Made by a program: the position numbers and the translations under genes. This document shows positions 5,616 to 8,553 of a DNA stretch of 64,000 bases, in pieces. This DNA comes from Slackia exigua ATCC 700122 (GTDB lineage: Bacteria; Actinomycetota; Coriobacteriia; Coriobacteriales; Eggerthellaceae), in assembly GCF_000162875.1 (NCBI RefSeq), contig NZ_GG700630.1, forward strand, positions 1,220,968 to 1,284,967, read 5' to 3'. Position 1 is the stretch's first letter. Every line of letters starts with the position of its first letter. The notes beneath the pieces were generated by a model that made no database searches, was not told the DNA's origin, and saw only the letters and a list, made by a program, of their open reading frames with translations.

Positions 5616-5692
5616 GCGCCGTTACCTCAGCTGGATAGAGGGTCTGACTACGAATCAGAACGTCGAGGGTTCGAATCCCCCACGGCGCACCA
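5616..5692 (+). tRNA. tRNA-Arg(ACG)
   Basis: A full cloverleaf can be drawn: acceptor GCGCCGT/ACGGCGC, anticodon stem TCTGA/TCAGA around loop CTACGAA (anticodon ACG), and T-loop GGTTCGAATCC. The discriminator is A5689 and CCA is encoded (5690-5692). Its A34 is the expected target of the TadA deaminase encoded at 20614. Confidence 0.96.
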
Positions 5693-5708
5693 TTTTCTTG
5701 CAGAACCG

Positions 5709-5731
5709 AAGGCGCAGCGGCGCCTTTTTTT
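5709..5731 (+). terminator. Rho-independent terminator of tRNA-Arg
   Basis: AAGGCGC-AGCG-GCGCCTT hairpin followed by an uninterrupted T-run, 17 nt after the CCA end. Confidence 0.85.
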
Positions 5732-5842
5732 ATGGATGCGTTCAAAGGATGACATTGAAGGTTCGAAAATCTAATTTTCACTCATGACCTTCACCTTCGC
5801 TTCATGCGTGGGCCTGGAAGGTCGTGCGCATGAAGGGGAGCC

Positions 5843-7198
5843 ATGTTCTATTTATCCGCCATGCTCGGCATGCCCGTATACGATTCGACGGGTGAAAAAC
5901 TAGGAATCGTATCCGATCTCGCCATTTCAACAGGCGAGGTGTTTCCTCGTATCACATCGCTTGCATTCAAAGGGCCTGGTCGAACGCCATTCATGATCAG
6001 TTGGCGCAAGTATGTCGAAGATTACGCCGACGACAAGGTGGTCTTGAATACCGAGGCGTTCAACATCCGGTTCAGCTATCTTCAGCCGCGAGAGATCCTT
6101 CTCGCTCGCGATCTGCTCGATAAGCAGATCGTCGATACGCAGGGCTTGAAAATTGTTCGCGTGAACGACCTGAAGATCTCGCCCAGCGGCTCTCAGCTGC
6201 GTTTGCTCGGCGCCGAGGTCGGCGTCCGCGGGATCTTGCGCGGCCTGCATCCTTTGCTGGAAAAGGCCGTCGTCGGTATCGGCGGGCTCTTCAATATAGA
6301 TATAAAAGAGCAGATCATTGCCTGGAATTACATGGACCTGCTCGATCGTGACCTCTCTAAAGTCCAACTGTCCGTCACGCATAAACGCCTCGAGGAGCTT
6401 CATCCTGCCGACGTCGCGGATATTCTCGAGCAGCTCGATCCCCGCCAACGCGCCGAAGTCTTCCGCCATCTGGATGCCGAGCGGTCGGCCGAGGTCATCG
6501 CCGAACTTGAGGACGAGTTCCAGGCGGAGGCCCTCGAGGATCTCGATGTAGCCGAAGTATCCGGCCTGCTTGGACATATGGATCCTGACGATGCGGCGGA
6601 TATTATCCGCGATCTTCCCTATGAAAAGGCCGAGCGCCTGCTCCGTCTTATGGGCGTCGACGATGCGGCGGAGATCCGCTCGCTTCTGGGGTACAAGGAC
6701 GATACCGCCGGCGGCATGATGACGACGCGGTTCGTCTCGATGTTCGAAGACGATACGGTAGGGGATACCATCGAGGTCCTGCGCGGATTGGACGAAGACT
6801 TCCCGACGGTTCATTACGTGTACGTCCTTGAAGAGGACAGCGAGAAGTTGACAGGCATTCTGTCTCTGCGCACGCTCGTCCTCGCCCAGCCCTCGACCGT
6901 CCTCAGCGATATCATGTTCACCGACGTCATCACGGTAGACCCGAACGAAGACGAAGACGAAGTGGCGGCTGACATTTCGAAGTACGATATGGTCGCGCTT
7001 CCTGTCGTCGATGAAAGCGGACATATGCTCGGCCTCGTCACCGTTGACGATGCCATCGAAGTCATCGAAGACAGCTCTGAAGACGAGAAGGCGATAGACA
7101 CCTTCGGCAAGGTGGTGCTTGCTGTCGCGGCAGGCGTCATCCTCCTGTTCTTGTACACGCTGCTCGTGCTGCACCTGGCGGGAGTCTCGTCATGGTAA
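5843..7198 (+). CDS. PRC-barrel/MgtE_N/CBS protein, probable partner of the downstream Mg2+ transporter
   Basis: A 451-aa protein built from MgtE parts but without the MgtE channel. Residues about 1-75 and 90-160 look like two PRC-barrel repeats (for example GMPVYDSTGEKLGIVSDL). About 190-290 is an acidic helical MgtE_N superhelix (LHPADVADILEQLDP; HMDPDDAADIIRDLP). About 290-425 is a CBS pair (DTAGGMMTTRF; LPVVDESGHMLGLVTVDDA). A single C-terminal membrane helix (about 428-448) ends the protein. In MgtE, the N and CBS domains sense cytosolic Mg2+ and gate the pore. Its stop overlaps the start of the NRAMP-type transporter gene by 7 nt, so the two are translationally coupled. I infer that this is a Mg2+-sensing regulatory subunit. 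Confidence 0.85.
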   Translation: MFYLSAMLGMPVYDSTGEKLGIVSDLAISTGEVFPRITSLAFKGPGRTPFMISWRKYVEDYADDKVVLNTEAFNIRFSYLQPREILLARDLLDKQIVDTQGLKIVRVNDLKISPSGSQLRLLGAEVGVRGILRGLHPLLEKAVVGIGGLFNIDIKEQIIAWNYMDLLDRDLSKVQLSVTHKRLEELHPADVADILEQLDPRQRAEVFRHLDAERSAEVIAELEDEFQAEALEDLDVAEVSGLLGHMDPDDAADIIRDLPYEKAERLLRLMGVDDAAEIRSLLGYKDDTAGGMMTTRFVSMFEDDTVGDTIEVLRGLDEDFPTVHYVYVLEEDSEKLTGILSLRTLVLAQPSTVLSDIMFTDVITVDPNEDEDEVAADISKYDMVALPVVDESGHMLGLVTVDDAIEVIEDSSEDEKAIDTFGKVVLAVAAGVILLFLYTLLVLHLAGVSSW

Positions 7199-8553
7199 AG
7201 AAGGACGCATCCTACGACGAAGTCGTTCAGGCTGCGACTTCAGGAGACGAGGATGCCCAACGGCTCATGACCGGCGTGTCGGAGGGCGACGAACGCAGCT
7301 CCGTCGCACGTTCCGCCTCTTCGACGAAGCCGTTCGTCCTGCTTCTGCTCAGCGCTATGGGGCCCGGCGTGGTTTCCGCCATGGCGGGCAACGATGCGGG
7401 CGGTATATCCACCTATTCGACCGCGGGCGCTGAATTCGGCTACGCGACGCTTTGGGTCATCCCCGTCATGTGCGTGCTGCTCTTGGTCGTGCAGATGACG
7501 GCGGCGCGTATGGGCGCCGTGACAGGCAAAGGATTCGCCGCTCTTATCAGAGAGCGTTTCGGCATTCGTTTGGCTGCCCTTGCGATGGCTGCGCTGCTTG
7601 TGGGCAACGTTGCGACGACTTTCAGCGAGTTCGCCGGCATCGCCTCGGGGGCCGAACTCTTCGGCATGCCTCGATGGGTGAGCGTCCCCTTTTCCGCCGG
7701 CATCGTTTGGATTCTCATCACGCGCGGAAGCTATAAGAGCGTGGAAAAGGTGTTCCTTGCGGTCTCCCTCGTCTTCATCACGTATATCATCGCTGCGTTC
7801 CTTGCGGGGCCGAATTGGGGAGACGTTGCCCAGGCGACCGTTACGCCTGCGATTCCTGCAGACATGCGTTTCATCTCCCTCGTCATTGCGATGATCGGCA
7901 CGACTATCGCGCCTTGGATGATGTTCTTCACTCAGAGCAACGTGGTCGATAAGGGGGTCACGGCTTCTCGGGACGATATGTTCGGGCAGAAGGTCGACGT
8001 CGCAACGGGCACGATCGTGGCCTGCATCGTCGCGTGGTTCATTATCGTGACGACAGGAGCGGTGCTTTTCCCCCAGGGAATAAGCGTCGATTCGGCAGAA
8101 GCCGCAGCAAGCGCCCTGGCTCCGTTCGCAGGCCACTACGCGAAGGTGCTCTTCGCCGCCGGTCTGACGGCGGCAAGCTTCCTTGCGGCCTGCGTACTGC
8201 CCCTGACAACATCGTATGTGCTGTGCGAAGCGTTCGGCTGGGAAGCGGGCGTCGACTTCACGTGGCGTGAAGCACCGGTGTTCAAAGGCATTCTTTCATT
8301 CGTCATATTCCTATCCGCCGGAATCGTGCTCATTCCTCATATGAACCTGATGGGCATCATGCTGACCGCGCAGTTCATCAACGGCGTCATACTCCCCGTC
8401 CTTTTGGTGTTCATGGCTCTCCTTGCCGCCGACAAGCGCCTTATGGGAACCCATGTAAGCGGCGTTGCGGGAAAGATCGCGGTGTGGGCGACGGTCGCGA
8501 TCGTCACGATTCTGACGGTGGCGCTTTTGATCATGCAGGTTCTCGGGTTATAG
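7192..8553 (+). CDS. NRAMP-related Mg2+ transporter (NRMT type)
   Basis: A 453-aa SLC11-fold transporter with about 11 membrane helices after a 45-residue cytoplasmic N-terminus. Classical Mn/Fe NRAMPs carry DPGN in helix 1 and MPH in helix 6. Here helix 1 reads NDAGG (Asp68, Ala69, Gly70, Gly71) and helix 6 reads TTIAPWMMFF, so the transition-metal-preferring methionine is missing. These changes match the NRMT clade, known to transport Mg2+ and represented by a protein from Eggerthella lenta. Helix 1 keeps its aspartate. The ATG overlaps the stop of the MgtE_N/CBS gene, which supports Mg2+ as substrate. Mn2+ transport cannot be excluded from sequence alone. Confidence 0.85.
   Translation: MVKKDASYDEVVQAATSGDEDAQRLMTGVSEGDERSSVARSASSTKPFVLLLLSAMGPGVVSAMAGNDAGGISTYSTAGAEFGYATLWVIPVMCVLLLVVQMTAARMGAVTGKGFAALIRERFGIRLAALAMAALLVGNVATTFSEFAGIASGAELFGMPRWVSVPFSAGIVWILITRGSYKSVEKVFLAVSLVFITYIIAAFLAGPNWGDVAQATVTPAIPADMRFISLVIAMIGTTIAPWMMFFTQSNVVDKGVTASRDDMFGQKVDVATGTIVACIVAWFIIVTTGAVLFPQGISVDSAEAAASALAPFAGHYAKVLFAAGLTAASFLAACVLPLTTSYVLCEAFGWEAGVDFTWREAPVFKGILSFVIFLSAGIVLIPHMNLMGIMLTAQFINGVILPVLLVFMALLAADKRLMGTHVSGVAGKIAVWATVAIVTILTVALLIMQVLGL

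Follow-up and report, generated by a model that had tools for sequence, protein, structure and literature searches.

A pore-less MgtE relative encoded beside an NRMT in Slackia exigua: a putative Mg2+-sensing subunit and a candidate leader riboswitch

Two overlapping genes in the 64,000-nucleotide stretch of the Slackia exigua ATCC 700122 genome analysed here (the window) probably specify a Mg2+ import unit. Gene B (7192..8553, + strand, 453 aa) encodes an NRMT, an SLC11-type Mg2+ transporter homologue, and gene A (5843..7198, + strand, 451 aa) encodes a relative of the MgtE channel that we consider, with moderate confidence, to be the Mg2+-sensing regulatory subunit of B. We propose that B is the importer and that A is a membrane-anchored regulator derived from MgtE. 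At high cytosolic Mg2+ the N and CBS domains of A would close around Mg2+, as they do in MgtE, and B would be held inactive; as Mg2+ falls A would open and B would import. The ancestor of A was probably a PRC-MgtE beside an NRMT that had already lost its selectivity aspartate, the pore then being reduced to one helix in the Eggerthellaceae, and a structured leader that conceals the ribosome-binding site of A would probably add a further level of expression control. Contact between A and B, the inhibition and the role of Mg2+ as the signal for both protein and leader are inferred; the linkage, domain make-up, retention of site acids, pore decay, fusion to MgtA and conservation and predicted structure of the leader are features read from the sequences.

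Gene B is, by sequence comparison, a close homologue of the structurally solved Eggerthella lenta NRMT (EleNRMT; PDB 7qia) and is predicted to transport Mg2+. It matches the Nramp profile (E 2e-82) and scores 632 bits against EleNRMT, with the next Nramp structure at 94 bits. The NDAGG/TTIAPW variant of the NRAMP site, which a first-pass annotation of this DNA had recognized, is present at residues 67 and 237 respectively and is shared with EleNRMT at both motifs; NDAGG occurs in 78/78 Eggerthellaceae NRMTs. For gene A, Pfam returned two PRC stretches (E 5e-13), MgtE_N at residues 186-287 (E 7e-29) and two CBS stretches (E 3e-18) and gave no match to the MgtE pore domain (PF01769), while hydropathy indicated a single helix, near residue 433, after the CBS region. 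The same annotation's description of a protein with PRC-barrels, MgtE_N, a CBS pair and one helix in place of the MgtE pore is thus borne out. MgtE structures rank top in a fold comparison (Z 13.8). An AlphaFold model, from which no geometry was taken as its confidence is low (pLDDT 64, pTM 0.30), has one continuous helix at 401-445. Compared with the Thermus thermophilus MgtE channel (2yvx / 2zy9), gene A has the N and CBS domains and most of the Mg2+-site acids, but lacks the five-helix pore and the aspartate D432 and carries two extra PRC barrels. The idea that these barrels are the most conserved and hence the docking part of A was dropped, as conservation is not higher there and neighbours consisting of PRC alone were its sole support. 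The two genes are the sole Nramp and sole MgtE_N genes of the 2.1-Mb genome, in which one CorA and no MgtA above cut-off were found. They overlap by 7 nt (ATGGTAA, 7192-7198), and this overlap had been taken to couple them. The overlap is there, but the start of gene B relative to gene A varies strongly among relatives and the 7 nt are not kept, which rules out conserved translational coupling by this means.

The arrangement of the two genes is not due to chance, since gene A lies directly upstream of the NRMT gene at 79/79 testable Eggerthellaceae loci (those with upstream sequence; L112, at a contig end, was left out). A survey of MgtE_N/CBS genes beside NRMTs, as had been suggested for the actinobacteria, was extended to a sample of 396 Actinomycetota genomes, which yielded 81 NRMT matches of at least 300 bits, a threshold picked after the list was seen. 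A full PRC-MgtE_N-CBS gene adjoins 59 of these and a PRC-only gene of ~200 aa adjoins 19, with a full PRC-MgtE elsewhere in the genome, so that 78/81 have one or the other; two of the remaining three have neighbours with PRC and a partial MgtE_N, and the third is truncated by the end of its contig. No such neighbour accompanies the weaker-scoring homologues that have DDDPAG in place of NDAGG (L212-L214) or the second copies (L251-L253). The stand-alone PRC-barrel neighbours (L147, L153, L155, L210, L234-L248) are usually downstream of the NRMT gene.

No fusion of gene A to an NRMT was found; the sensor module does occur fused to MgtA. In two separately assembled actinobacterial genomes (2/31 genomes of their class), a single ORF of 1317 aa encodes PRC-MgtE_N-CBS followed by a complete Mg2+ P-type ATPase MgtA (L139:593-4543 and L140:281-4231, both on the - strand). 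The ATPase parts match TIGR01524 at 1077 and 1099 bits against a cut-off of 611, the two proteins are 87% identical, and on the tree they branch with the five-helix partners described below. A limited literature search found no published report of such a fusion. These data bear on another explanation, namely that A and B are merely co-expressed Mg2+-homeostasis proteins and that A senses Mg2+ but acts elsewhere, making no contact with B. It would account for the 19 genomes in which the full PRC-MgtE is encoded apart from the NRMT and only a PRC-barrel gene beside it, and for a Tsukamurella plasmid on which a relative of gene A adjoins a DUF1003 gene instead of an NRMT. We nevertheless regard it as rather unlikely, given a linkage that is near-fixed over the phylum, that occurs in both gene orders and that has a covalent counterpart in another Mg2+ importer.

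The association of NRMTs with MgtE fragments is real, and its core was already known. The first-pass annotation knew of no described partner for NRMTs, but Shin et al. (2014; PLoS Genet, PMC4072509) had reported that most NrmT genes adjoin a gene for a homologue of the MgtE N-terminal cytoplasmic domain, as at the Slackia locus, and had speculated on a role in feedback regulation, the same idea as ours, or as a chaperone. They also described M-box riboswitches controlling the NrmT/MgtE-fragment genes in some species (PMC4072509). The present analysis adds the PRC barrels, the near-universal linkage, an evolutionary route with pseudo-pore intermediates and pore decay across relatives, the MgtA fusion and an uncatalogued, non-M-box leader. 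Published experiments count against a regulatory subunit: the C. acetobutylicum transporters were functional without a partner (PMC4072509), and the purification and study of EleNRMT involved the transporter by itself (Ramanadane et al. 2022; eLife, PMC8806188). Neither a partner nor an operon turned up in a term search of the text of the latter paper. Mg2+ rescue was no better when the A. capsulatum partner was co-expressed, with an NrmT that resembled a Mn2+ transporter (PMC4072509); this result and the partner-free function of the C. acetobutylicum transporters fit an inhibitor and are no demonstration of one. Full-text literature searches found no later experimental test of an MgtE-fragment partner. 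Another explanation is that A, instead of being a feedback sensor, helps the NRMT to assemble, stabilises it or acts as its metal chaperone. A chaperone role was among the suggestions of Shin et al. (PMC4072509), and in 19 genomes a PRC-only neighbour evidently suffices, but NRMTs function without A in heterologous hosts (PMC4072509) and A retains Mg2+-site acids, which together make this role improbable.

The state of those acids is consistent with A as a Mg2+ sensor. With the Mg2+ sites of T. thermophilus MgtE as tabulated in PMC5882242 for reference, every Eggerthellaceae A protein has an acidic residue at the positions of E59, D91, D247 and D250, as do 99%, 87% and 81% of them at those of D95, D226 and D259 respectively. 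The plug-helix acid E258 counts against this, being kept in only 28% of the Eggerthellaceae A proteins and lost in helix-less partners. Retention is higher for site acids than for other acids in the Eggerthellaceae (0.87 vs 0.52, p 0.014) and in five-helix partners (p 0.007), and not significantly so in helix-less partners (p 0.10), all of these p-values being indicative only, as the sequences are related. With most of the site acids kept and the arrangement preserved across the phylum, the earlier proposal of an MgtE-type sensor linked to an NRMT stands. It is very improbable that A is an activator sensing low Mg2+, or that ATP bound by the CBS pair is its main signal, because, although nucleotide binding is frequent in CBS pairs and MgtE binds ATP (PMC5529423), Mg2+ on these domains shuts the MgtE channel and the corresponding acids are mostly kept in A.

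How the one-helix form arose can be followed in its relatives. The first-pass annotation had supposed that MgtE sensor domains were moved onto an unrelated transporter. In the other sampled Coriobacteriia orders and families, and in several lineages beyond, the neighbour of the NRMT is a protein of ~600 aa with 4 or 5 predicted helices; the C-terminal region of some of these proteins matches PF01769, and the L145 partner aligns over its full length with T. thermophilus MgtE. The selectivity aspartate of MgtE, D432 within the P(D/A)x4Px6D motif (PMC9276622), is lost in 33/33 five-helix partners and kept in 6/6 canonical MgtE proteins of the sample, and the GGN-type TM2 motif is likewise missing from the partners; the alignment is poor in the most diverged TM regions, so that individual residues can be assigned there with less certainty than in L145 and L152. 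With the pore columns left out of the tree, the Eggerthellaceae one-helix clade is nested among the five-helix partners (support 100/99), and the NRMT tree agrees with the partner tree within the Coriobacteriia. This nesting indicates that the pore was lost in place and that the sensor domains were not moved; judged from these sequences, gene A appears to derive from a five-helix PRC-MgtE that already lay beside an NRMT and whose selectivity aspartate was gone. The helix-less partner clade appears from its sequences to have lost the pore separately, its placement having weak support (83/27). A 1030-aa ORF in L149 proved to be an unrelated MFS reading frame.

Upstream, the pair is bounded by a tRNA-Arg (ACG) gene (5616..5692, + strand; ARAGORN, Rfam). 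A terminator-like hairpin after it (5708..5727, + strand), which comes from a consensus scan only and is no commoner than in shuffles, suggests that gene A and gene B have their own transcript. Between this hairpin and gene A lie a leader element (5737..5793, + strand), a diverged Slackia copy with the family-wide 15-mer TTGAAGGTTCGAAAA exact at 5755-5769, and a predicted stem (5795-5809 paired with 5826-5840, + strand; fold z -2.82) that would bury the gene A ribosome-binding site AAGGGGAG at about 5833-5840. The 15-mer is found 85-313 nt before gene A at 76/78 Eggerthellaceae loci with at most one mismatch, compared with at least four in shuffled controls, and in the non-Slackia leaders of the family it runs on into a hairpin core that is conserved. 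Leaders fold better than their shuffles (mean z -3.7; 34/38 below -2), and the ribosome-binding site of gene A is, family-wide, predicted to be unpaired at 0.17 vs 0.42 with shuffled leaders. In the core, 23 cells have double changes vs 11.2 in shuffles and pairing is far better than in slid versions, as analysed on ungapped non-Slackia cores, where 20-40% of rows leave the outer half unpaired.

A covariance model (R1) detected the leader once per genome in 37 Eggerthellaceae genomes; in 29/29 cases checked the copy lay 54-271 nt ahead of gene A, and no copy was found in the searched Eggerthellaceae that lack the gene pair. Two further weak matches (E 0.002-0.007), both from outside the family, are probably due to chance. 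The window copy has TTGAAGGTTCGAAAA intact and folds well (z -2.8 to -4.1), but its R1 score is no higher than 21.2 bits (E 0.0074), and it is therefore considered diverged. With MAFFT alignments of the leaders RNAalifold produced no consensus structure, since the CCTCACAG block is missing from the Slackia copies and the alignments misplace the 3' stems. Rfam has no match for the leader, and regulation by an M-box (ykoK; RF00380) was rejected, as that family had no match in the genome or upstream of gene A. The likeness to the M-box is at most that of a structured leader ahead of Mg2+ transport genes; the sequences are unrelated, and the Slackia leader is predicted to bury a ribosome-binding site. 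M. tuberculosis, for its part, has an M-box that acts on translation (PMC12810186). In the window, TGAAGGTT (5756-5763) is predicted to pair with GACCTTCA (5786-5793), which could alternatively pair with GAAGGTC (5817-5823), and we infer from this a possible switch. The pair is preceded by an uncatalogued, putatively structured leader, a riboswitch candidate with a core that is conserved across the Eggerthellaceae and diverged in Slackia.

NRMTs have been studied as stand-alone transporters, and a dedicated regulatory subunit, if there is one, would explain how Mg2+ overload is avoided. The question of the role of the MgtE fragment, put in 2014, can now be tested with EleNRMT, which has a solved structure and close relatives that carry gene A. 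The pseudo-pore series would trace how a channel became the regulator of a different transporter; the MgtA fusion offers an independent system for the same sensor, and the leader a concrete riboswitch candidate. A broader and more tentative possibility, which we put forward as a speculation, is that the cytosolic half of MgtE has served as a portable Mg2+ sensor of at least two unrelated importers (the NRMT in trans and MgtA by fusion) after the channel decayed to a pseudo-channel subunit, and that an undescribed Mg2+-responsive riboswitch governs the Eggerthellaceae operon.

The sensor genes and their partners also occur on plasmids. An NRMT/sensor pair is present on an Alicyclobacillus plasmid, and the Citrobacter freundii conjugative plasmid pPSV (L220:2512-5224) has the reversed order, with an Nramp-type transporter gene ahead of a gene A relative of the CBS/MgtE_N kind; the two lie between genes for a heavy-metal P-type ATPase and for a Tn3 transposase. 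On the Tsukamurella plasmid (L221:3980-5793) the DUF1003 gene immediately follows the relative of gene A, and the DUF1003 protein is possibly another partner of sensors of this type. Finally, the NRMT-like proteins of L150 and L187-L192 are longer (~530-550 aa), with 13 predicted helices vs about 10 usually and GDNDAGG / APWQ motifs, and their partners are helix-less.
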